64,000 nt of DNA, from NCBI GenBank assembly GCA_025463305.1, contig JAOBWK010000070.1, positions 102,530-166,529 on the forward strand, written 5' to 3'. Shown here in pieces: positions 2,975 through 31,725 of this stretch. The stretch comes from Ilumatobacteraceae bacterium (GTDB lineage Bacteria > Actinomycetota > Acidimicrobiia > Acidimicrobiales > Ilumatobacteraceae). Below the pieces are notes generated by a model. That model made no database searches, had not been told where the DNA came from, and was given only the letters and a program-made list of their open reading frames with translations. Position 1 is the first letter of the stretch, and every line of letters starts with the position of its first letter. The position numbers and the translations under genes are program-made.

Positions 2975-4293
2975 CGCGACTTGTTGTGTGGGCGCTTGAT
3001 GACGACGTGATCGGCGCGGGAGATGACGGGCTCGAGAAGCCGTACAGGACGGTGATCGTTCGAGCGGGCGAAAGGCCCGCCGTATCAAGCGTGGCACTGT
3101 GCATCGGGTTTGAAGAGCGGACACATCTGCCAGCCCTGTTTGCAGTCGCCAAGGTCCGCAATGCGCAACGCGTCGCGACGAATCGCTTAAGGGTCCGGCT
3201 TGAGCCATTCGAACTCCTCCACGAACCGGTCCTACTCGACGACCTCGCCCGAATTACAGATGATCGGGCGAGAGCGGCCGTTACCGACGCAGGCCGGCCA
3301 GGAACGGTCGCGATCCCTCTAACTGAGCGCACCTCTGGTCTACTCCGAGAACATCTCCGGACCGCCCAGCCAGATATCTCCGAGATCGTGGAGCGACTCG
3401 TGGCGGAGAACGCAATAGTCGTTCAGGGCAACGAAGGAGAGCGCATTCGCGAGGAACGAGATGCCGTGCAGCTGGCTGCGATTCTCGCTGGCATGCCTGA
3501 TGCTCTGGAGATCACAACGGCGAACAGGTCACCCGATGCCACTGGCATCGCATTCGCTGTCGCGCTCAATCCATACTTCCTCTTGGACACTGAGGACGAC
3601 CTTATAGCGTCTGACCTACTCGCATTTGACGGCAACGGAACTCTGACCCGCATCGCAGGTTCTGCCTCTCGGATCGACGATGCGACGACCACGTTGACCA
3701 TCATCAATGTGAATCGCAAGCCGCTGGAGCACGTGCTCGGGGTTGATCTCGTTTACTACGATCACGCGAGAAAGAGCACATCGCTTGTCCAGTACAAGCG
3801 GCTTCGACGGGTCACCGAAGAACTTGACGAGGGAAAGCAGCGGTCCGACTGGGTGTACTCGGACGAAGCCGATCTGCGCAAGCAGCTCAAACTCATGGCT
3901 GCCGCATCAACGGTCCGGCCACCGGCGACAGCGGTTGCCGACTGGCGGCTCGGCCATTCTCCGTTCTTCTATAAGTTCGTCCGCGCAGAGGACTTCGCTC
4001 CGAACGACAACGTCACGCTGAGAGGGATGTACGTCCCAGCGGAATTTCTCCGCGTTGGCATCGAGGAAGGCCATTTCAGATCGGGACCTCGCGGCGGCTT
4101 CCGGGTGTCATACGACAATACGCCGCACATGACGAGAGATACCTTTACTCAGTTAGTGAGGACCGGGTGGCTGGGCTCAAGCTCGTCGGACCCGAATATA
4201 GCCGTCGAGCTAGTTGCCGAACTTGCGGGCGATCACGAGGTAGTCCTCGCCATCAGGCAGTCGAAGTTACCAAAGCCTCGAACAACTCCATAG
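2971..4293 (+). CDS. Unknown protein with a QxK-type nuclease-like motif (module gene 2)
   Basis: Starting at the GTG that overlaps the preceding stop, this encodes 440 residues. I do not recognise the family. Residues 253-279 (EHVLGVDLVYYDH, then SLVQYKRL) have the Asp...Gln-x-Lys arrangement of Mrr-like PD-(D/E)XK enzymes, with Asp259 and Gln274-Tyr-Lys276. The first 150 residues are alpha/beta and Arg-rich without a clear domain; the C-terminal 130 are also unassigned. Tight coupling to another nuclease-like protein suggests that the two work as one complex, perhaps a defence or element-competition module. Confidence 0.5.
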   Translation: MTRLVVWALDDDVIGAGDDGLEKPYRTVIVRAGERPAVSSVALCIGFEERTHLPALFAVAKVRNAQRVATNRLRVRLEPFELLHEPVLLDDLARITDDRARAAVTDAGRPGTVAIPLTERTSGLLREHLRTAQPDISEIVERLVAENAIVVQGNEGERIREERDAVQLAAILAGMPDALEITTANRSPDATGIAFAVALNPYFLLDTEDDLIASDLLAFDGNGTLTRIAGSASRIDDATTTLTIINVNRKPLEHVLGVDLVYYDHARKSTSLVQYKRLRRVTEELDEGKQRSDWVYSDEADLRKQLKLMAAASTVRPPATAVADWRLGHSPFFYKFVRAEDFAPNDNVTLRGMYVPAEFLRVGIEEGHFRSGPRGGFRVSYDNTPHMTRDTFTQLVRTGWLGSSSSDPNIAVELVAELAGDHEVVLAIRQSKLPKPRTTP

Positions 4294-16440: not shown

Positions 16441-16665
16441 ATGTCGCCTCCCACCAAGTCAGCGGGCGCTGAACCGATGGCGCAGACCACCGTGCGCTTC
16501 CCACGCGCGTTGCTCAGGCAAGCCCGAATACGCGCCGCGACGGATGAACTTACGCTCCAGGCGCTGCTCATCGTGGCACTCGATGCTGAACTCGCGCGTC
16601 GGGACAAGGCCGACACGCGCCGCGCCATCCAACGCTCAGGTCGCGGACCAACCGCGCATCGATAG
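16441..16665 (+). CDS. Ribbon-helix-helix (CopG/Arc-type) small regulator
   Basis: A 74-residue protein with AGGAGG four bases before its ATG. Residues about 14-52 fit the RHH pattern: a beta strand (QTTVRFPRALL), helix (RQARIRAATDE), turn and second helix (TLQALLIVALDAELARR). Such proteins bind short dyads as dimers and act as antitoxins or autorepressors. No toxin gene is adjacent. It is divergent from the pilus operon and ends 12 bases before motif copy C, so it is a candidate regulator of one or both. Confidence 0.65.
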   Translation: MSPPTKSAGAEPMAQTTVRFPRALLRQARIRAATDELTLQALLIVALDAELARRDKADTRRAIQRSGRGPTAHR

Positions 16666-16777: not shown

Positions 16778-17098
16778 GTGACCGAGCGGCCAACGAATCG
16801 GCAACTCGAGCACCGCTACCGCCGCCTGAAGAGCGTTCCAGCGTTGGCAGAAGAGCTCGGTATCGCCTTCGAGACGGCGCGCCGCTGGCTCATCGAAGCA
16901 GGCGTGGAGATGCAGTCAAAGGGTCGCCCTAGCAAGAAGGCTCAGAAGCTCGACCCCGTGGTGCTCGCGACGCGTTACGCAGCCGGCGAGAGCATCGCCA
17001 CCATCGGTGAGGCGTTCGGAGTCAGCCCAGCAACTGTGAGAGCCCGACTGATCGACGCTGGAGTCGAGCTCCGCCCACGCCGCGGGTGGAGCTACTGA
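16778..17098 (+). CDS. Small regulator with two tandem helix-turn-helix motifs
   Basis: A 106-residue protein read from GTG at 16778 (another GTG lies at 16772). It holds two similar HTH units: VPALAEELGIAFETARRWL with IEAGVE, and ESIATIGEAFGVSPATVRARL with IDAGVE. Both resemble the Hin/resolvase-type HTH, and both end in the same (I)xAGVE, so the gene may have arisen by internal duplication. A linker with KGRPSKKA connects them. It is a candidate for binding the element's 31-bp dyad. Confidence 0.7.
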   Translation: MTERPTNRQLEHRYRRLKSVPALAEELGIAFETARRWLIEAGVEMQSKGRPSKKAQKLDPVVLATRYAAGESIATIGEAFGVSPATVRARLIDAGVELRPRRGWSY

Positions 17099-17322
17099 CG
17101 ACTGCGCGGCGGTCAGTGATGCGGTCACGTCGAGGCTGATCCTGGCGGCCACGACGTGAGACAGTCGGCGCGAGGCCAAAGCGCAGGCTCATCGGATCCG
17201 ACTGATCCGACGGATCCGACGCGGATTACTCGATCAAGTCAACGGTCGAGGCTGCTCGAGGCCCTGGACGTGTGTGGCACGTCGAGCGAAGTGGGCTCCG
17301 CCAGAGTCGGTATGTTGGCGCC
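17099..17322. other. Intergenic region ahead of the ART-RT operon, with iterons
   Basis: No convincing gene. It contains three 9-bp tandem repeats (listed separately). This is where a promoter, an operator or a non-coding RNA of the reverse transcriptase unit would be expected, as several defence RTs have an upstream ncRNA. Confidence 0.4.
17194..17220. repeat. Three 9-bp tandem repeats (GGATCCGAC type)
   Basis: The units are GGATCCGAC, TGATCCGAC and GGATCCGAC, directly adjacent. They sit about 100 bases before the putative ADP-ribosyltransferase start. A short iteron array like this could be a regulator-binding site. Confidence 0.7.
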
Positions 17323-17718
17323 GTGGACGGTCAGAGCGACAGGAAATATTTTCGCGCCATGCGCGCCAACGGCGCTGTTCCTGCAGCGGGGCCGGAGGAC
17401 CTGGGCATCAGGACGAAGATCGACATTCAACCCGACTCAGAGGGGCGCGTCGATCCAGGCACCGGCGGAATGTCGATGGCTCCCGACAACCCGCTACATC
17501 TACCCCGGTTCCATCGCCCACCGAGCCTTGGTGGCTCAGGCACGAAACCCGTCTGGGCCATCAACCGAGATGGGTTGCCGGGGACCCTCTCAATTAGGCA
17601 CGACCCGAAAAAACCTCTTGTGCACGCCTTGCTGGAGCCGACGGCCCGGATGACTTTTGACGAATACGTCGACGAGATCGAGGGAACCGCGGAAGACTGG
17701 GCGATCAAAGATGTCTGA
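17323..17718 (+). CDS. Putative Tse2-like ADP-ribosyltransferase-fold protein
   Basis: A 131-residue protein from GTG 17323; an in-frame GTG at 17272 would add 17 residues. From memory, its second half follows the Tse2 toxin pattern: an acidic/Gly turn (RVDPGTGGMSM, 42-52), then LPRFHRPPSLG, then DLK-like LPGTLSIRHDP, and HALLEPTARMTFDEY (101-115). Compare Pseudomonas Tse2 with YAPDTGGTSVF and later HYTIMPAKPM. Tse2 is a cytoplasmic toxin with an ADP-ribosyltransferase fold. The gene overlaps the reverse transcriptase by eight bases, so the two are surely co-translated. Family membership is probable, not proven. Confidence 0.5.
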   Translation: MDGQSDRKYFRAMRANGAVPAAGPEDLGIRTKIDIQPDSEGRVDPGTGGMSMAPDNPLHLPRFHRPPSLGGSGTKPVWAINRDGLPGTLSIRHDPKKPLVHALLEPTARMTFDEYVDEIEGTAEDWAIKDV

Positions 17719-19564
17719 CCACCTTGTCCTACCCACCGCCATCGGTGAACTCCAGGCTCGGATGCAGCGAGCGGAGTCCACTCCCGACGACCTGCTTCAA
17801 GTTCTTCGAGCGCTACAGCGGATGGGATTGCCTCGGACGGACATCGAGGTCCACCTCGAGCGGATACGCGCCGTGAACGACGCAACCGTCCGGGATGCAG
17901 CCGTCGAACGAAATTGCCTCCTCGCTCTCGAGATGACAGTTGGAGACGCAGGCGAATTCTCATTGTCGTGGGACAGCATTGAGATGGCGAGCATCTACGT
18001 GCCGCGAGTCGTAACTCAGGCAGTCGCGACGGAGAACCTCGAGGCGGCACTCGAACCTAGCGACATGCTGCCCCCGCGCCCCGGCGGCGCCGCGGCAAGC
18101 GGCGTAGTAGCCGCCGTTCCGTCGAAATTGATAGAAGCCCTGCGAATCGGCGAGTGGTTTCCCCTTCCTGTGGATGAGTTCCGGGTTCCGAAGGGATCGT
18201 TCACAACGCGCCCTGCCGCTCTGCTGTCGTTGCCGGACCGCCTCGTATTCGAGGTCCTTGCGTCGCGGATCGAGACAGAACTCGACCGACAGCTGCCGGG
18301 TCACGTGATCTGGCCGCGCCGACGGGGACCGCGGGCGCAACCAAACGAGTTCCGAGATATGCCGAAATCGTGGTCGGCGCCGTACGTGGTGAAGGCGGAC
18401 ATCAGTGGCTTCTACGAATCAATTGATCATTCCGTACTCGCCATGATCCTTGCCGGCACGCTGGACGCACGGAGTGACGAGGTACAGGCGACGGAGCATT
18501 TTCTTGGTGCGGTTATGGGTCGACCTGTCGGGCTGCCTCAGGGTCCGCTCGCCAGCGACGTGTTCGCATCCGCGTACCTGCTCCTCATTGACCAACGAAT
18601 GGTTAAGGAGGGTTGGCAGATCGCACGGTTCGCTGACGACTACTTCATCGCGGCGGACTCAATGGCTGATGGGCGAAATAAGATTGAGGAGCTAGAGCGA
18701 TATCTGGCCGATCACCACCTTCGTCTGAACGACACAAAAACCACGATCATGCGCCATGACACATATCTGGCCGGACTCGATCGGCCGGCGCCGGGTCAAG
18801 ACCTGTCGCCCACGGAGTTCCACCGACTGTACGAGGAGGACCTTCACGCTTCGAAGGACGACCGCGAAATCGGAGGGATTCTCAGCGCATTGGGAGCCGA
18901 CGAACAGTTGCTCTTCGATGTCTTGTATCACCAGTCGATGACGATCGAAGAGGCAATTGAGGAACTCGCAGCCGACCTGAACCCCGGCGCAGTAAGTCTT
19001 CGACTAGCGAATCTCAGTCGAATTGACGAGGACTTGCGTGTGGCCGAAGCAGCGGACGACATGTCTGCCATCGCCCTCTCTGTCCGCGACAGCCTTGCCT
19101 TCATGGCCGCCGCCAAACAAGTAGACGCCCTCGGCCCCACAGAGCGATTGCTCCATTGGTTTCCGGATCTTGGTCGAGTTGCGTCCGCGTACTTTGAAGC
19201 TGTTTCGATTGATGCCCCGTACGACGTGGACCTGGCACTTGTGCGGCTTCTACAGGTGGGCGAACTGCCCGATTGGACCAGCGCGTGGCTCTGCCGCTCG
19301 GTTCAGCGGCGAGCCGACACGCCTGACGAGACGCTGATGGCATTGCTCCGAACCATCATCTTCAGTCCGCAGTACGGGGCTCTCACCCACATGGCATCGA
19401 CGTGGGCGCTTGCGAGCAAGGGCGCGCTGACCACTGAACTCTGGACAAAGGCGCTTGCCGACGCATCGAGCGCCGTTCGTGCGGAGTTGCTTCTTGCGAA
19501 GCAGAGCAACCCGCAGTTATACCCCGACGCAGATACGCCAGCGCTTTCGCCGCCGTCGACCTAG
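17711..19564 (+). CDS. Reverse transcriptase of defence/unknown-group type
   Basis: A 617-residue protein from ATG 17711, which overlaps the previous stop (ATGTCTGA). RT motifs are complete: KADISGFYESID (Asp230), GLPQGPLASDVFASAYL (274-290), IARFADDYF with the FADD catalytic pair (Asp309-Asp310), and LRLNDTKTTIM (337-347). No maturase, HNH or Cas1 domain is present, so it is not a group II intron or CRISPR RT. The last 250 residues are predicted helical without a known domain, like the alpha-helical repeats in AbiA/AbiK and UG/DRT enzymes. I cannot place it in a named DRT class. Confidence 0.85.
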   Translation: MSDHLVLPTAIGELQARMQRAESTPDDLLQVLRALQRMGLPRTDIEVHLERIRAVNDATVRDAAVERNCLLALEMTVGDAGEFSLSWDSIEMASIYVPRVVTQAVATENLEAALEPSDMLPPRPGGAAASGVVAAVPSKLIEALRIGEWFPLPVDEFRVPKGSFTTRPAALLSLPDRLVFEVLASRIETELDRQLPGHVIWPRRRGPRAQPNEFRDMPKSWSAPYVVKADISGFYESIDHSVLAMILAGTLDARSDEVQATEHFLGAVMGRPVGLPQGPLASDVFASAYLLLIDQRMVKEGWQIARFADDYFIAADSMADGRNKIEELERYLADHHLRLNDTKTTIMRHDTYLAGLDRPAPGQDLSPTEFHRLYEEDLHASKDDREIGGILSALGADEQLLFDVLYHQSMTIEEAIEELAADLNPGAVSLRLANLSRIDEDLRVAEAADDMSAIALSVRDSLAFMAAAKQVDALGPTERLLHWFPDLGRVASAYFEAVSIDAPYDVDLALVRLLQVGELPDWTSAWLCRSVQRRADTPDETLMALLRTIIFSPQYGALTHMASTWALASKGALTTELWTKALADASSAVRAELLLAKQSNPQLYPDADTPALSPPST

Positions 19565-19840
19565 TCGTCGCCAGTTCACTGGTGCCCACGAACGCCCTCT
19601 CGTGGTGCCGAGCGATCGATAGAGGTCGGACGCAGATGCGTGCTGGAAATCGCACATGTGCGCTGAGCGCCGTACATCCGGTCGCTTTGCAGATGAAAAT
19701 ACTTGACAGGTGCGAGTATTTTTGATTGTATGGAGACACCGGATCGGTGACCGCCACCTTGGGGAAGGCGACGGCGGCACCGATCCGGTTCTCGGCCTCG
19801 CAGGCCCGCTTATTCCCCCTCTCTCCCTTCGGAGGTAGCG
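19565..19840. other. Intergenic region carrying the maintenance-block promoter
   Basis: This 276-base gap is locally AT-rich around 19,690-19,735 and holds a promoter with an overlapping operator (listed separately). The region between the promoter and the start at 19841 could be an untranslated leader of about 100 bases. I see no gene. Confidence 0.5.
19696..19731 (+). promoter_or_regulatory. Sigma-70-type promoter with an overlapping operator dyad
   Basis: A perfect -35 TTGACA (19703-19708), a 17-base spacer, and -10 TTGTAT (19726-19731). The dyad AAAATACT (19696-19703) and AGTATTTT (19715-19722), separated by 11 bases, brackets the -35 box and is exact over eight bases per arm. A dimeric repressor bound there would block the promoter. 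It faces the maintenance block (19841 onward), which suggests autoregulation. Confidence 0.75.
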
Positions 19841-20254
19841 ATGGACCACCATCACCTCGCCAGCTCACTTCTCTCACGCCCGTTGTTCGACGTGATCGCA
19901 TGGAACGACCCGGTCTGCGCCCACGGCACACCGTCCGATACCGATGAGGCGCTCGTCATGCTCTGCCCCGTTCTCGGCCCGTCAGCGACGCTGGTTCTTC
20001 ACCGGCTGTCCCGGTACGCCGCAGCCGGACCGACGTCGTGGGAGCCGAGCGTTTTCGCCGCCACCTTCGGCTTGTCGGCAAACGCAGCCACTGGTCTGGC
20101 CGTGAAGGCACTGACCCGACTCGCCCGGTTCGGCTTCGCAACGATCGGATCGTCCACGCTCTCCGTCCGCACGCATGTACCCCCACTGCCCCAACGGTGG
20201 CTGGCGGCGATGCCCGATTACCTGCGCGTGCACCCGACGGCCGCCGCAGCGTGA
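19841..20254 (+). CDS. Unknown maintenance-block protein, helical and possibly winged-helix
   Basis: A 137-residue protein with GGAGG at good spacing from its ATG. It has a His-rich start (MDHHHLASSLL) and a central segment that reads like a winged helix: LVLHRLSRYAA, SWEPSVFAATFGLSANAATGLAVKALTRLARFGFATIGSSTLSVRT in parts. The helix-turn-helix (VFAATFGLSANAATGLAVKAL) followed by a beta hairpin is suggestive. Being first behind an operator-controlled promoter ahead of ParB, it could be the autorepressor of this block. Family not recognised. Confidence 0.6.
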   Translation: MDHHHLASSLLSRPLFDVIAWNDPVCAHGTPSDTDEALVMLCPVLGPSATLVLHRLSRYAAAGPTSWEPSVFAATFGLSANAATGLAVKALTRLARFGFATIGSSTLSVRTHVPPLPQRWLAAMPDYLRVHPTAAAA

Positions 20255-20327
20255 CCGGCCACCGGTGCGTCCCCCACCCAGGTGCCACCCGGATCACCAC
20301 CCCGGTTGCTACCCGGAGGCACGTGCG

Positions 20328-20663
20328 GTGAGTCGGCCTGCGATGAGTCCAGCGCTCATATACGTGCCCCTCGCCACCGGCACGCAGATCAGGTTCCGAG
20401 TCGTCACACCCGATCACCATCCGATCACGGTCACCGTCGAGCCAGCCCTTGCAGCAGCGACCGCGCTCGCTGTCGCCCGCCACCACCCAGCCCACTACGC
20501 CGCCATCGCCGCCAGCGATGGGCGATGGCTCGAGGTCCACCTCGACGGCCACACCACGCTCATACCACCGTCCAGCGACCGCGCAGGCTGGCCCGCCACG
20601 GTGACACGAGCACTCGGGCACCTCGCCCCGTCCCCCCTGAATCCCCAAGGAGTCAGCCCATGA
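20328..20663 (+). CDS. Unknown small protein coupled to ParB
   Basis: A 111-residue protein from GTG 20328, which has GGAGG eight bases upstream. It looks like a compact alpha/beta protein: IYVPLATGTQIRFRV, ITVTVEPALAAATALAVARHH, then DGRWLEVHLDGHTTLI. Its stop overlaps the ParB ATG (ATGA). Family not recognised. Confidence 0.6.
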   Translation: MSRPAMSPALIYVPLATGTQIRFRVVTPDHHPITVTVEPALAAATALAVARHHPAHYAAIAASDGRWLEVHLDGHTTLIPPSSDRAGWPATVTRALGHLAPSPLNPQGVSP

Positions 20664-21970
20664 CCACAACCACCATCGAGGCAGTCGTCGAGATCGACCT
20701 CGACCACCTCGCGCCACACCCACGAAACGTCCGACGTTCCCTCGGCGACCTCAAAGACCTGACGCGATCGATCCGCGACCGTGGCATCGAGACTCCGCTG
20801 ATCGTGCTGCCGGCAGACGGCAACGGGGTGCATCACATCGTCGCCGGCCACCGCCGCCGGGCCGCCGCCGAAACTGCCGGCCTGCTAACACTGCCCTGCC
20901 TAGTCCGAGACTTCAACGACGAGGCTGATGTGCTGCTGTCGATGATCGCTGAGAACACTCAGCGCTCCGAAGGACTGAACATCGTTGACGAAGCTCAAGC
21001 GCTCGCCGCCGTGATCGACCTCCGCGGAGGCACCGTGTCGGCACGCAAGCTCGCCGCCGCGGTCGGCCACAGCGAGGGATGGGTCCGTACCCGCCTCGCA
21101 CTGCTCTGCCTGCCCGACTCGGCCCTCGACGCATTGCGCGCCGCCAAGCTCACCCTCGACGTGGCCGCAGCGCTGACCGTCGCCGCCGACCACCCCGAAC
21201 TGATCGATCAACTCGTCACCCAACGTGGTCTGTCGGTCTGGCATGTCGAGGCGGCCCAGCGCAAGCTGCTCGCTGACCTTGCTGTCACCGAAGCTGCAGT
21301 CCGCATCGAGGCCACTGGAGTCGCCGCCATCGGCGAGGACGAATGGCGAGCGAACCAGGCGTCGTGGAAGACGCTCGACGACCTCGGCCTCGACCCCAAG
21401 TCACACCGCAGCGAGTCGTGTCACACCGTCGTCGTCAAGGCGCGCTACGACGGCACCGTGGTCGAGATCCCGGCCTGCATTGAGCCGCGGCGCCACCGCG
21501 GACGCAAGCCCGACAGCGAGCTCGTCGTCGCGGCATCGAGACCGTCCGAGGCAGATCAGACAGCAACCGCGGATCGGCGCGAACGCCGCCTCGCCACCCA
21601 AAGCCGCATCGACTGGGTCGGCGAACGACTCCGCACCGGACGCCCACCAGCGATCGCGGGTGCCTCTCCGTTAGCGATGGCCACATGGATCGACAGCGCC
21701 CCGTACGCGGTAACGCAGAGGGCTGTCACGCTGCTCGGGATCGATCGACCGGACGACGGCTACGTCAAGTTGCTCCAGGAGCACCTCGCGGCCGACCCGA
21801 AGCAACTCGCGACCATCGCGCTCGCGCTCGTCGCGGCGACAGCCGAGGAGTGCGCTCGCCAGTCCCCGGCCTCGACTGTCGTGGTCCGCTACCTCGACGC
21901 GATCGAACGCCTCGGCTACCAGCCCACCGATTGGGAACAGGCCAAGCGCCTCACCAACGACGCCGCCTGA
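20660..21970 (+). CDS. ParB/RepB/Spo0J-family partition-like protein
   Basis: A 436-residue protein starting at ATG behind AAGGAG. The N-terminal ParB/sulfiredoxin-fold domain shows IDLDHLAPHPRNVRR, IETPLIVLP, IVAGHRRRAAAE and MIAENTQRSEGLN, which includes the CTP-binding GHRR-type and ENxQR boxes. The next section is the HTH KorB-like domain (ARKLAAAVGHSEGWVRTRLALLCLP). No ParA gene is next to it. The longer-than-usual C-terminal 200 residues are unassigned. It likely supports maintenance of the element when excised or controls its transcription. Confidence 0.85.
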   Translation: MTTTTIEAVVEIDLDHLAPHPRNVRRSLGDLKDLTRSIRDRGIETPLIVLPADGNGVHHIVAGHRRRAAAETAGLLTLPCLVRDFNDEADVLLSMIAENTQRSEGLNIVDEAQALAAVIDLRGGTVSARKLAAAVGHSEGWVRTRLALLCLPDSALDALRAAKLTLDVAAALTVAADHPELIDQLVTQRGLSVWHVEAAQRKLLADLAVTEAAVRIEATGVAAIGEDEWRANQASWKTLDDLGLDPKSHRSESCHTVVVKARYDGTVVEIPACIEPRRHRGRKPDSELVVAASRPSEADQTATADRRERRLATQSRIDWVGERLRTGRPPAIAGASPLAMATWIDSAPYAVTQRAVTLLGIDRPDDGYVKLLQEHLAADPKQLATIALALVAATAEECARQSPASTVVVRYLDAIERLGYQPTDWEQAKRLTNDAA

Positions 21971-22029: not shown

Positions 22030-22099
22030 TCGCGCGCCCCCACAATCGCAACGCGTTTTCCCGATCTTCTGCACAGCTGCACCAATGGTGCCCGTACCC

Positions 22100-22130
22100 G
22101 TCACGAAATCGGGTTTTCACAGGCATGTGT
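22100..22130 (+). promoter_or_regulatory. 31-bp element motif, copy D
   Basis: Begins GTCACGAAA, contains the exact dyad GAAATCGGGTTTTC and ends AGGCATGTGT. It ends 2-8 bases before the possible relaxase starts (GTG 22133, ATG 22136, ATG 22139), so there is no ribosome-binding site in between. This matches copy B at the M23 gene and points to leaderless or near-leaderless expression, with the motif covering the promoter. Confidence 0.7.
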
Positions 22131-22135
22131 CAGTG

Positions 22136-25100
22136 ATGATGTCGTTGTGGAAACTCCGGGTCGGGGTCGAGTCGTATTACCTCGCCCAGGTCGCCTCCGG
22201 TCTCGACGAGTACTACACCGGCGCAGGTGAAGCCGCCGGCCAATGGACGGGGACCGCTTCGGAGCTACTCGGGCTCTCCGGCACCGTTGCCGGTGACGAC
22301 CTGCGCGCGGTGCTCGCTGGGCTGGCCCCAGACACTGGACTGACTCCGAACGGCACACGCCTCGCGGCCCACGCTCGACGGGTCCCTGGCTTCGACCTGA
22401 CGTTCTCGGTGCCGAAGTCCGTATCGGTCGTCTACGCGCTCGGCGACCCACTGGTCCAAGCCAGCGTCGTCGAAGCATGCCAGGCGGCGTTGACCGAAGC
22501 GTTGAGCTGGTTGGAGCGCGAGGCGTGCTTCGTGCGCCGTGGAACGAACAACCGCAAGATGGCCACCGATCCAGCCGGGTTCGGGACGCGCAGGATGATC
22601 GCCGACGGCCTCGTCGCCGCCCAGTTCCCGCATCGCACCTCGAGGATGGGAGACCCTCATCTGCACTGGCACGTGCTCGTTGCGAACACCGCTCGCGGGA
22701 TTGACGGCCGCTGGACCGCTCTCGACGGAACCGCCCTTTACCGGGCGCAACGCACCGTCGGAGTCCTCTATCAGACGGCGATGCGCCGCGAGCTCTCCCT
22801 ACGGCTCGGGCTCGAGTGGGGACCGACGCACTCCGACTCAGCCGAGATCGCAGGGATCCCGACACGGGTCCTGCGCGAGTTCTCCCAACGCCACGACCAG
22901 ATCGCCGAATGGCTCGACCACAGCGGCCGTTCCGGCCCTGAGGCAGCCCGCCAGGCACTCCTGGAAACGCGCACCAACAAACAGACCCAAGTGGACTTCG
23001 CGATCATCGAGGCCGAGTGGCATCAACGGGCCCAAGCCTTGGGCTGGGGTCCGGCCGAACTCGAACAACTCCTCGCCACCTCTCCCGGCACACCGCCCAA
23101 CACGGACGACAACCGATGGTTCATCCGTGACGCGACCTGGCACCAGGGCGAATCGACACCAGCGGCTCGGGCAGTGCCATTTGATGAATGGGTCGACTGG
23201 TTGCTGACTACCCGTGTCACCGAGAAGTCGGGAACGTTCACCCGCTTCGACCTCACCCAGGCAATCGCCGCCGTGCTCCCGACAGGGACCACCATCACCT
23301 CCGTCGAGACCACCGTCGGTCGAGCGCTTGCCTCCCCCGCCATCGTGCAAGTAGGAGATCACTGGATCGAACGGCGCACCATCGACGCGCAAGGGAGGAT
23401 CGTCGCCGACGACCGCGAACTGCTCTACACCTCACGATCACTGCTCGCCGTCGAGCAGCAGCTTCTCGCCCAACTGACCAACGGCACCCTGTGCGGTGCT
23501 GGGATCCTCGACGCCGCCGAAGTCGAAGCAGCGATCGCCGCGTCGACCTTGGGCGACGATCAAGCCACCGCCATCCGGGTACTCACCCGTGCAGGCGACC
23601 GGGTAGCAGTGATGGTCGGACGAGCAGGCACCGGCAAGACCCACACCCTCGGCACGCTCCGCACCGTCTACGAAACCGCCGGTTGGGACGTCATTGGACT
23701 CGCACCCTCAGCCCGAGCAGCACGCGAACTCCAAGACGGCGCCGACATCACCTCGACGACCATCGCCCGACACCGAGTCGAACAACGAGAGATCACCGCC
23801 ACCACGCTGATCGTCGTCGACGAAGCTGCGATGGCCGGCACCCGCGACGTGGCTACGCTGGTCGATCAAGCCACCAGCGCAGGGGCAAAGGTCGTGCTGG
23901 TTGGCGATCACCACCAACTCCCCGAAGTCTCCGCAGGCGGCGCATTCCGAGCAGCGCTCGACACCCTCGACGATCGGGTGGTCGAGCTCACCGTCAACCG
24001 CCGCCAAACACATCTCTGGGAACAAGCCGCACTCGACCAACTCCGCAACGGCGATGTCCCCACAGCATTCGCCGCCTACCTCGAATATGGTCGCGTCGTC
24101 ATCACCGATACGCCAGAAGACCTCCACGCGATCGTGCTCGCTGACTGGAACACCACCCGCACCACCGGCACCACCCTCCTCCTCGCCGGCACCCGCGCCG
24201 AAGCTCGACTGCTGAACCGCCACGCCCGCGAGATCCTCGCCGACGGCGGGGAACTCGACCTCGCCAAGCAGATCGAGGTCGGAGGGCGAGCGTTCACGAT
24301 CGGCGACCAGATCGTCCTCGGACGCAACGATCCCCGCCAACACCTCGACACGGGAGAGACGTTCGCGGTCGACAACGGGATGCGCGGCACCGTCACCAAA
24401 CTGTCAGCCGAACAGATGACGATCCAGGTGACGAGCGGCGACCACGTCGTCATCGACCGCGACTACCTCGACTCCGGATGGGTCGACCACGCCTACGCGC
24501 TGACGATCCACAAAGCCCAAGGCGTCACTTGCGACCACGTCCTCGTTGTCGGCCCAGCCGGCCTCTACCGCGAAGGCGCCTACGTTGCGCTCTCCCGCGC
24601 CCGAGACACCGCCCGTCTCTACGCCACCACAAGCCAGGCAGCCGGCGTCGAAGAGCGCCACTCGAACGGCATCCCACTCCCCTCCGAGCCCGTCGCCGAC
24701 CCGGAAGCCGAACTCCTCGCCCGACTCCAACACTCCGCAGCGAAGAACCTCGTCATCATCGACGACCCCGACGCCGCAAGAGTGGCCGAACTCGTCACCA
24801 ATGTCCCGGCCGACGAACTCATGCGCCTCGCCCGGCACGCAGCCGACACCGAACTCAACTGCGGTGTGGCAAACCCCAGCGTCGACCGAGGCGCTCTCGA
24901 CGCTGCGACCGCGACGCGCACCCACATCGCCATCGGCAGCCGCGTGCGAGCCGTCGACCGCGACAACGTCGGCCACGTCCATGACATCAACGACACCGAC
25001 GGCAACTGCACCGTGCACTTCGAAAGCACCGACGGCCGCACAGCCATCCGAACCCTCACATGGGAACGGCTCATCGCGATCGACAACCCCAACCCCGTCA

Positions 25101-26341
25101 CCCTCACCGTGGCAGCTGCCGACACACTCGCCCACCGAGGCGAGGTCGTCGCCGAAGCCGAGCAGGAATGGGCCCTCGCTCTCGCCAAGCGCGGCGTGCA
25201 ACCAGGCGATGCCGACCTGTACCGCCGCGCTGTCCACACCGCAGCGGACCAGGCCGCCCGGAGCCTCCAGGCGGAACCACCCGAGTGGCTCACCAGCATG
25301 CTCGGACAACGCCCCGCCCACTCTGCGGCAGCGTCCGTGTGGGACGACGCCGCCACTCGCATCGCACACCACCGCCTCCTCCACGCAATACCCGAGACCG
25401 AATCAGGCATCGGACCTCGACCAGCCGACATCGCAGATGCCGGCAGGTGGCAACACCTGATGCTCCGCCTCCTCGAGGACCGGGTCTGGCTCACCGACCA
25501 TCCCACCCCGATCGCAGAGCCATTGACACGCGCAACCCCGAGCGAACTCCTCGGCCGCCAGCACGACCTGCAGCAACTGCTCGACACAGCGCCAGCCGAC
25601 CAGCGGCAATTCATCGACCGGATCATCAACTCTGCCCTCGACCCCACCCAAATGCATGACTACCTGACCGCCGCGATGAGCGAGCAGGACGCACGGCGCG
25701 ACTGGATCATCGCCAACTGGCCGCACATCGTCGAACTCGAACAAGTCACCCAGATCATCTCTATTCAGGAAGGCGCGCCACATTGGCCGACCGGCCAACC
25801 CGACCCCGTGAAGACCATGCTCGACCAACTCCGTCAACTCGCCCCCGACAACACCGAGCGCGAAGATCGCTCCCTCGCCGAACTCACCAGGCGGGAGAAC
25901 GATCGGGACCGCGTCCGTCAGCTTGAAGGTCGACAGGGTGAGCTCCAACAACTCAGTCATCAGAAGCTGGTGCCCGACGAGAGCGCAGCGCTGCAAACCG
26001 AACTCGTCAACATCGGCAGAGAGCTACGTCAGGCACGCAGCACGAGAGCCTCCGAGCAGGCGTTCAACCGCTACATCCCCAACCCGATCGACGACGCCCG
26101 CACCACCCGCATCACCACCCTCGCTGCCGACGCACTCACTAACCAGCCGGTATGGGTCATTGACCACGTCCGCTACCTCCACGACCATCACGGGCTCGCG
26201 GGCACGGAGCCCGCTGGGCTGGCGAAACGAGTCATCACCGCCGCAGCCCATCTCGACCTTCACGGTGACCTCCCAACCTCCTGGCCGGCGCCGACATCGC
26301 TCGCCATCGAGCATGCGCAGCCCGGCATCGAAGTCGGGTAG
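22136..26341 (+). CDS. MobF-family relaxase-helicase (TrwC/TraI/TraA type)
   Basis: About 1,401 residues. The relaxase domain has N-terminal tyrosines (ESYYLAQVASGLDEYY), FDLTFSVPKSVSVVYAL, and the three-His metal site: FPHRTSR (His166) with DPHLHWHVLVAN (His177, His179). The helicase part has Walker A VGRAGTGKTHTLG (about 493-505), IVVDEAAMAGT and VLVGDHHQLPEVSAGG, and later HKAQGVTCDHVLVV plus ALSRARDT typical of RecD/TraI. A long helical C-terminal tail follows. It nicks oriT, stays bound to the strand and unwinds it in transfer. An upstream ATG at 22085 is in frame but would read through motif D. Confidence 0.9.
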   Translation: MMSLWKLRVGVESYYLAQVASGLDEYYTGAGEAAGQWTGTASELLGLSGTVAGDDLRAVLAGLAPDTGLTPNGTRLAAHARRVPGFDLTFSVPKSVSVVYALGDPLVQASVVEACQAALTEALSWLEREACFVRRGTNNRKMATDPAGFGTRRMIADGLVAAQFPHRTSRMGDPHLHWHVLVANTARGIDGRWTALDGTALYRAQRTVGVLYQTAMRRELSLRLGLEWGPTHSDSAEIAGIPTRVLREFSQRHDQIAEWLDHSGRSGPEAARQALLETRTNKQTQVDFAIIEAEWHQRAQALGWGPAELEQLLATSPGTPPNTDDNRWFIRDATWHQGESTPAARAVPFDEWVDWLLTTRVTEKSGTFTRFDLTQAIAAVLPTGTTITSVETTVGRALASPAIVQVGDHWIERRTIDAQGRIVADDRELLYTSRSLLAVEQQLLAQLTNGTLCGAGILDAAEVEAAIAASTLGDDQATAIRVLTRAGDRVAVMVGRAGTGKTHTLGTLRTVYETAGWDVIGLAPSARAARELQDGADITSTTIARHRVEQREITATTLIVVDEAAMAGTRDVATLVDQATSAGAKVVLVGDHHQLPEVSAGGAFRAALDTLDDRVVELTVNRRQTHLWEQAALDQLRNGDVPTAFAAYLEYGRVVITDTPEDLHAIVLADWNTTRTTGTTLLLAGTRAEARLLNRHAREILADGGELDLAKQIEVGGRAFTIGDQIVLGRNDPRQHLDTGETFAVDNGMRGTVTKLSAEQMTIQVTSGDHVVIDRDYLDSGWVDHAYALTIHKAQGVTCDHVLVVGPAGLYREGAYVALSRARDTARLYATTSQAAGVEERHSNGIPLPSEPVADPEAELLARLQHSAAKNLVIIDDPDAARVAELVTNVPADELMRLARHAADTELNCGVANPSVDRGALDAATATRTHIAIGSRVRAVDRDNVGHVHDINDTDGNCTVHFESTDGRTAIRTLTWERLIAIDNPNPVTLTVAAADTLAHRGEVVAEAEQEWALALAKRGVQPGDADLYRRAVHTAADQAARSLQAEPPEWLTSMLGQRPAHSAAASVWDDAATRIAHHRLLHAIPETESGIGPRPADIADAGRWQHLMLRLLEDRVWLTDHPTPIAEPLTRATPSELLGRQHDLQQLLDTAPADQRQFIDRIINSALDPTQMHDYLTAAMSEQDARRDWIIANWPHIVELEQVTQIISIQEGAPHWPTGQPDPVKTMLDQLRQLAPDNTEREDRSLAELTRRENDRDRVRQLEGRQGELQQLSHQKLVPDESAALQTELVNIGRELRQARSTRASEQAFNRYIPNPIDDARTTRITTLAADALTNQPVWVIDHVRYLHDHHGLAGTEPAGLAKRVITAAAHLDLHGDLPTSWPAPTSLAIEHAQPGIEVG

Positions 26342-30387: not shown

Positions 30388-31530
30388 TCACGGGCCGTAG
30401 ATCCGGCTCGCCACGACATCTGCTGCTTCACGGGCGATCGACGGAACGACGTGGGAGTAGAGGTCGAGCGTGACACCGACCGTGGCGTGCCCGAGGCGCT
30501 CGGAGACGACCTTCGGGTGGACGCCGGCCTTGAGCGCCAACGTGGCATATGTGTGGCGCAAGTCGTGGAGCCGGATGCGTGACACGTCGAGCGAACGCGC
30601 GATCCGGTCGAAGTCGCGGGAGAACCCGTCGGGATGGATCATCCCGCCCAACTCATCGCGGAAAGCCAAGTCCCCTGACCCATCCCACGCTTCGCCCGCG
30701 GCGAGCCGCTCTTCGCGCTGGCGTTGGCGGTGGGCTCGCAGTACCTCGACTGTCTGCGAGTCGAGATACACGTGGCGTCGACTCCTCGGTGTCTTCGGCG
30801 GACCGAGCACCAGTTCGTTGTAGCCCGCGGTGGTCAGGGTCTGGGACACGGCGAGCTGTGCCCCGTCGAAGTCGATGTCGCCCCATCGCAGTCCGAGAAC
30901 TTCACCTCGGCGCATCCCCGTCGTGGCGAGCAGAGCGAAGGCCGCGTACAGCCGATCGTTTGCGACGGCACCGAAGAACACGCGAAGCTCGTCAGACGAC
31001 CATGTGGTGTGGTCCATCCGGGTCGTCGCCGGAGGCCTCGCTGATCCAGCAGCGTTGCGAACGACGACTCCGAGACGCTCCGCGTCCGACAGCGCCTTAC
31101 GGAGCACGACGTGCGTGTTCCGCACTGTCTTCGCGGCCAAGGGTTTGCCCTCACGAGAGCCGGTCGCGAGCAGGCCCGCGTAGAATTTCTCGATCTGCAT
31201 CGGCGTGAGCGATTGCAATGTGTGCCGGCCGAGTTGTCGGTTGATCCGCGCTACGGCCATCTCGTAGCTGTGCCACGTGGACGGCCGGAGTCTGCCCCGC
31301 TCGTTGGTCAACCAATCGCGCAAGAACTCGTCGACCTTTACTGATGACTTCGACACGACGTTGCCGCGCGAGGTGTCTCGCACGGCCTCGGCCAACGCGA
31401 TCTCCGCGTCCTTCTTGGTGGCGAAACCCTGCTTCAACGACTGGCGGCGCTGACCGGTCTCGGGCTGGAATCCGGCATCGACGCGGTAGCCCCATCCGCC
31501 GCTCCTCCGGAACACAGATCCTCGTGCCAT
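30388..31530 (-). CDS. int: Site-specific tyrosine integrase
   Basis: A 380-residue integrase from ATG 31530 (MARGSVFRRSGGWGYRV). The N-terminal AP2-like arm-binding region contains RRSGGWGYRVDAGF and RQSLKQGFATKKDAE; the SAM-like core-binding domain follows. The catalytic domain has the first Arg in TTGMRRGEVLGLRWGDID, then RLHDLRHTYATLAL (HxxR), ERLGHATVGVT and the Tyr nucleophile in LDLYSHV. It is 111 bases from the 3' end of tRNA-Leu, which it presumably uses as attB. A longer reading to 31581 starts with an unlikely Cys-rich sequence. Confidence 0.95.
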   Translation of the reverse strand: MARGSVFRRSGGWGYRVDAGFQPETGQRRQSLKQGFATKKDAEIALAEAVRDTSRGNVVSKSSVKVDEFLRDWLTNERGRLRPSTWHSYEMAVARINRQLGRHTLQSLTPMQIEKFYAGLLATGSREGKPLAAKTVRNTHVVLRKALSDAERLGVVVRNAAGSARPPATTRMDHTTWSSDELRVFFGAVANDRLYAAFALLATTGMRRGEVLGLRWGDIDFDGAQLAVSQTLTTAGYNELVLGPPKTPRSRRHVYLDSQTVEVLRAHRQRQREERLAAGEAWDGSGDLAFRDELGGMIHPDGFSRDFDRIARSLDVSRIRLHDLRHTYATLALKAGVHPKVVSERLGHATVGVTLDLYSHVVPSIAREAADVVASRIYGP

Positions 31531-31641
31531 GGAGAGATCGTAACCGGCGTGTGCATACTTCTGTGCACATATTGTGCACATCGGCGCATGGCAAGCCTGC
31601 CGGAAGGCATTGCGAGATCACATAATACCTGTTCAGAGCAG

Positions 31642-31725
31642 TGCCCGGGGTGGGGATCGAACCCACATGACCTTGCGGTCAGGGGGGTTTAAGCCCCCCG
31701 CGTCTGCCAATTCCGCCACCCGGGC
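31642..31725 (-). tRNA. tRNA-Leu (anticodon UAA)
   Basis: On the minus strand a full tRNA folds: acceptor GCCCGGG/CCCGGGC, D-arm with GGCAGACGC, anticodon stem GGGGG/CCCCC around CTTAAAC (anticodon TAA), a long variable arm (TGACCGCAAGGTCA), and T-arm with GGTTCGATCC. The variable arm is that of class II tRNAs. CCA is not encoded. The 3' end faces the integrase and is the likely attachment site. Confidence 0.95.

Follow-up and report, generated by a model that had tools for sequence, protein, structure and literature searches.

What does a reverse transcriptase (RT) do when its gene starts inside the end of a gene for a toxin-like protein? In the window (the whole 64-kb stretch of DNA that was analysed), a gene for a 131-aa Tse2-like protein with an ADP-ribosyltransferase (ART) fold (17323..17718, + strand, GTG start) runs into the gene for a 617-aa UG22-like RT (17711..19564, + strand, ATG start); the stop of the toxin gene and the start of the RT gene share 8 nt (17711..17718, + strand, ATGTCTGA). 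A program-made list of ORFs opens both frames earlier (at 17272 for the small gene and at 17657 for the RT gene); we use 17323 for the former because a homologue, P0003, which is also 131 aa long, aligns from there, and the RT starts, on which all overlap lengths given below rest, were picked by us. The protein lengths and the 8-nt overlap given in the first-pass annotation hold. The reading that we find best, and to which we give about an even chance as a whole, is a two-gene toxin–regulator module directed against phages, in which the RT would silence a Tse2-type toxin until infection and the RT gene would be translationally coupled to the toxin gene.

The same arrangement is found elsewhere. 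Eight RT loci were found when genome contigs were scanned. Two of them contain a near-full-length relative (L004 in Cellulosimicrobium marinum and L005 in Microbacterium sp.), and in both a Tse2-like gene lies immediately upstream of the RT gene. Further searches of 396, 394, 398, 396 and 42 genomes (overlapping sets) added two long-type RTs, L081 (G020) and L082 (G1197), beside which the Tse2-like gene scores 86.6 and 122.9 bits, respectively, with a profile built without both. All five long-type RTs, the window's included, have the ART gene in the same order and overlapping (8 nt in the window, L005 and L081, 11 nt in L082 and 1 nt in L004). Comparison of script-called genes across the five neighbourhoods (14.8–18 kb each, E 1e-4) found nothing in common beyond the ART and the RT, and six-frame ORFs of at least 60 aa (E 1e-6) gave as extra matches only shadow frames within the RT gene. 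The pairing is not due to chance, because it recurs in four further genomes and no other common gene was found, which bears out the earlier view of the two overlapping genes as a unit. These counts take each re-fetched locus once; they leave aside weaker RT matches (of other classes where classified) and L040, a 240-aa frame that corresponds to the C-terminal part of a UG22-like RT and near which neither an ART nor a HEPN partner (see below) was found.

Two more ART/RT pairs, P0003/P0006 (3288) and P0086/P0008 (9764), are suggested solely by source records of equal size. With the five linked loci alone, the correlation between ART and RT identities carries no information (r −0.32, with 91 of 120 permutations as high); it becomes 0.77 (75 of 5040 permutations as high) with the two size-matched pairs added. 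The Tse2-like gene is rare within the order examined: 3 out of 198 genomes have a match, two of them beside long-type RTs, and the third a weak one (42.7 bits) within a 247-aa protein. The ART queries tried had no match in plasmid and phage records and matched three loci, with identical match figures, in viral contigs; searches run without a positive control found no ART in the genomes of L008 and L010 or in 169 further genomes from the Acidobacteria, the phylum to which L010 belongs. A phage contig (L002, 5956-6691) has a Tse2-like gene whose end overlaps by 8 nt the start of an unrelated gene for a 101-aa protein with no Pfam match, presumably its immunity gene; the two are a candidate toxin–immunity pair.

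The small protein can be tied to Tse2 by profile and by fold. The Tse2 family (PFAM ID: PF18648) matches it with 24.4 bits (E 4.9e-5), just missing the gathering cut-off of 26.6, so the Tse2 assignment of the first-pass annotation found a match at sequence level, but one short of the family threshold; a homologue with 73% identity (P0002) carries the domain, as counted for 34 among the 120 relatives listed. Among the other paired ARTs, that of L081 scores 18.1 bits and those of L004, L005 and L082 have no match at E ≤ 0.1. The predicted structure has the Tse2 fold, in agreement with the ART fold proposed earlier: in a Foldseek search Tse2 ranked first (E 0.0011), with nothing below E 0.001. 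Sequence searches against solved structures gave no match for the single sequence; an 81-row ART profile weakly matched a single structure, SLL1785 (E 0.51), and not Tse2. The link to Tse2 is drawn solely from the Foldseek result and PF18648. Three residues are candidates for the active site, R11 (79 out of 81 rows, with two gaps), S51 (81/81) and E105 (81/81); they appear in the strand order expected for the Tse2 ADPRT family and may form an R-S-E triad. The L081 protein has a glycine at the position of the candidate catalytic glutamate, which may mean that this protein has lost its activity or that the residues of the triad are wrongly assigned.

The RT is best matched by the PADLOC model RT_UG22 (276.9 bits; the runner-up, RT_UG21, scores 105.2), with which the RTs of L004, L005, L081 and L082 score 252–287 bits; UG22 is filed as a defence class in PADLOC, which agrees with the defence-type RT claimed before. 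Its polymerase domain (RVT_1, 55.8 bits; residues 159–348, 18185..18754, + strand) contains the FADD motif at residues 307–310, and the catalytic aspartates D230, D309 and D310 are retained in all 47 aligned RTs. In the structure model (pLDDT 87.3), this domain is preceded by an all-helical extension (residues 1–112, 17711..18046, + strand; delimited by the secondary structure of the model and by the lengths before the shared core) and followed by a helical tail (approximately residues 425–600, 18983..19510, + strand) that matches the helical-repeat tails of UG/Abi RTs; an RT domain with a C-terminal helical-repeat domain, the feature of class 1 UG/Abi RTs, is thus present in the predicted structure. 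The best solved-fold matches are DRT6 and DRT4; DRT4, DRT6 and AbiK align up to residues 603–617, sharing the helical-repeat tail, and AbiP2 also aligns over the tail. A retron RT was ruled out, as UG22 is the best PADLOC class and the sole retron model in the NCBIfam output scores 27.2 bits, far short of its cut-off (235).

An RT paired with a toxin-like protein is not new within UG22, because other members of the class pair with a HEPN protein, and this pairing is already known since PADLOC contains RTasHEPN. We collected canonical UG22 RTs (∼490–540 aa; 420–512 bits to RT_UG22) from eight genomes (L085–L090, L072 and L074), and all eight loci encode, downstream of the RT, a HEPN-type protein in which an R-N-A-x-x-H motif is present (the HEPN-partner profile was built without two of these loci). 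RTasHEPN matches all eight proteins (108–151 bits), and their genes are adjacent to the RT gene, overlapping it in several loci, much as the small partner is adjacent to the RT in the window. None of the eight loci has a Tse2-like gene, and neither the window nor the other four long-type loci yield a hit to the HEPN-partner profile, even with E values up to 10 allowed. The partner is therefore of another type here, a Tse2-type ART upstream of the RT instead of a HEPN protein downstream, and the RT itself differs: 110–131 residues precede the shared core in the five ART-paired RTs compared with 13–31 in the HEPN-paired RTs, i.e. the N-terminal extension is found in the toxin-paired RTs and is missing from the HEPN-paired ones.

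The tree of the RT core follows the partners. The five ART-paired RTs fall inside a clade of 47 rows (SH-aLRT 99; 42 of the rows are metagenomic proteins without readable surroundings, so that partner counts rest on five loci), the eight HEPN-paired RTs are in another clade (SH-aLRT 98), and each of the two retains its own partner. The presence of the ART (5/5 long-type versus 0/8 canonical) gives p 7.8e-4 if loci are assumed independent, which they are not, because the partner label follows the clades. A third clade (SH-aLRT 94) holds four metagenomic RTs and those of L083 (7718-9388) and L084 (7483-9237), which match UG22 and near which neither an ART nor a HEPN partner was found. By eye, a 153-aa protein encoded upstream of the L084 RT looks membrane-anchored, and the L083 RT lies near a long gene resembling the window relaxase. 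Placing the RT by class thus confirmed UG22, with a supported clade of its own, in a class whose other members have the HEPN partner, and of the undescribed toxin–RT class proposed in the first-pass annotation what stands as new is the Tse2-type partner: none of the five ARTs is matched by PADLOC, the literature searched, from which the main 2022 UG/Abi RT survey was out of scope, yielded no paper on a Tse2-type ART paired with an RT, and Table 4 of the myRT paper (PMC8934634) gives no UG22 partner. The recurrence of the pair in unrelated surroundings suggests an undescribed version of an antivirus system.

How might the two proteins work together? Restraint of a toxin by an RT is a notion shared with retrons, for which Bobonis reportedly described in 2022 tripartite toxin–antitoxin systems with the RT restraining the toxin; the RT of the locus is of a non-retron class, and Rfam gave no match to a retron RNA. 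In the module that we favour, the first gene would encode a Tse2-type ADP-ribosyltransferase toxin and the second a UG22-like RT, at the place that the immunity gene would occupy beside a Tse2-type toxin (in Tse2/Tsi2 of Pseudomonas aeruginosa the second gene encodes a small immunity protein, not an RT). In the healthy cell the RT would silence the toxin, through its N-terminal helical domain and/or the DNA that it synthesises; phage infection would disturb the RT or its DNA product, and the freed toxin would modify an essential target and stop growth (abortive infection). We propose this control because a Tse2 relative without a small immunity gene would need a brake and the RT is the sole other gene common to the five loci, and we read the RT as taking the immunity slot because the Tse2-like gene of phage contig L002 has its 101-aa neighbour in that position, with the same overlap. 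The model is built on the gene pairing, the folds, the kept active-site residues, the conserved unit and the presence of defence genes around some of the copies; that the ART is toxic, that the RT restrains it and makes DNA, and that phages are the trigger are its predicted elements. The sub-cut-off Pfam score, the sequence searches that miss Tse2 and the glycine of L081 count against it, as do the partnerless L083 and L084 and an RT N-terminal domain with no detectable kinship to the phage 101-aa protein (hhalign, run against that single sequence, gave a probability of 0.1% and thus no support for the domain as a fused copy of it).

A phage-sensitive DNA product would be a natural switch, because the class 1 RTs studied to date make DNA without a nucleic-acid template (PMC13174585) and the DNA product of DRT4 is described as building up on infection and turning toxic when a phage protein protects it (PMC13213688). 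In its most specific form, which we put forward tentatively and with some doubt, the UG22-like RT would be the antitoxin of a Tse2-type toxin, silencing it by template-independent DNA synthesis together with the N-terminal domain, and phage interference would fire the toxin. On this view the RTs of UG22 would serve as an all-purpose regulator that has acquired dissimilar toxins (HEPN, ART) on opposite sides of its gene. The partner swap between sister clades, with changed position and an extra RT domain on the ART side, hints at where the partner may bind.

The evidence does not tell restraint of the ART from its activation by the RT. An RT that exerts no restraint might make, on infection, a DNA product that activates or recruits an idle ART, the coupling serving stoichiometry; the gene order would be equally natural for this, canonical UG22 RTs likewise have their HEPN partner next to them, with overlapping genes at several loci, as expected for an effector, and the DRT4 product is described as building up on infection (PMC13213688). 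We consider it unlikely, though deserving serious weight: Tse2 inhibits growth when expressed (PMC12133291), so that an unguarded relative would need a brake, and no other candidate immunity gene is common to the five loci. Two reviews (PMC12133291 and PMC6099711) differ on the mechanism of Tse2, one giving it as unknown and the other as ADP-ribosyltransferase activity.

It is improbable that the RT defends alone by toxic DNA synthesis, in the manner of DRT4, with the ART as an add-on or addiction toxin checked by an unseen factor. DRT4 and DRT6, the best fold matches, are described as single-gene systems (PMC13213688), but here the second gene encodes an ART that is present in fixed order and with overlap at 5/5 long-type RTs, and neither the ART-paired nor the HEPN-paired subclade departs from its own partner. 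The DRTs studied to date are described as acting through synthesis products (PMC13213688), and retrons act through a toxin; both ideas would be united in a UG/Abi RT that is tied to a Tse2-type toxin. The pair would permit a clear test of whether RT activity restrains a toxin outside retrons, and it puts a Tse2-type toxin into a setting within its own cell.

Some regions around the pair could have belonged to it. The ncRNA that the first-pass annotation suspected in the 224 bases upstream (17,099-17,322) was not supported: the RNA fold has a z-score of −0.95 (32 out of 200 shuffles are as good), a lenient Rfam search of 16900-20000 gave no match, Rfam at the gathering cut-off found only two tRNAs in the whole window, and a divergent gene predicted at L082 comes as close as ∼135 nt to the region in which the ART is conserved. 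Neither a sigma-70-like promoter nor a terminator turned up in a simple scan. The sequence GATCCGAC occurs eight times on both strands of the 64 kb, and three of these copies stand in tandem at 9-bp spacing ∼100 nt before the toxin gene (17195..17220, + strand, starting at 17195, 17204 and 17213), where they are a possible operator. Further upstream on the same strand are an RHH-like gene (16441-16665; weak Antitox_RHH match below cut-off) and an HTH gene (16778-17098), neither with a counterpart at the other four loci; the HTH gene was rejected as part of the unit on this ground.

The window copy is on a mobile element, as had been proposed, with genes for ParB (20282-21970), a TrwC relaxase (22085-26341) and an integrase (30388-31581) that abuts tRNA-Leu(TAA) (31641-31725). 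An integrative conjugative element probably ends at the integrase/tRNA-Leu junction (30388-31725); the tRNA end (at least 15 nt, exact) is not repeated anywhere else in the window, and the other end of the element therefore probably lies outside it. A fitness or ordinary toxin–antitoxin cassette carried by mobile elements, or a pair domesticated for another role, would suit a copy on an integrative element near relaxase and ParB genes, but is the least probable reading, since UG22 counts as a defence class in PADLOC and defence genes lie near L082 and L091.

Such genes were sought with PADLOC among a few genes of the window and among the neighbours at three of the four other loci (L081, L082 and L091). 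Of the other defence-like units that the first-pass annotation placed nearby, a DUF2971 protein (1272-2135) has a modest match to PDC-S31 (41 bits), but the HTH gene has very weak matches only, which leaves that claim thinly supported. At L081 the neighbours gave only a weak DpdB match, at L082 an Old-type nuclease gene lies beside the ART–RT pair, and at L091 an Avs2-like protein is encoded ∼3 kb from the toxin–RT pair; the latter (3288-4265, 325 aa, 179 bits) matches only the first ∼300 residues of Avs2 and is a short Avs2-like protein. Among the canonical loci, a gene for a HamB-like helicase (226 bits) adjoins the UG22 RT–HEPN pair of L090 (3793-6961).
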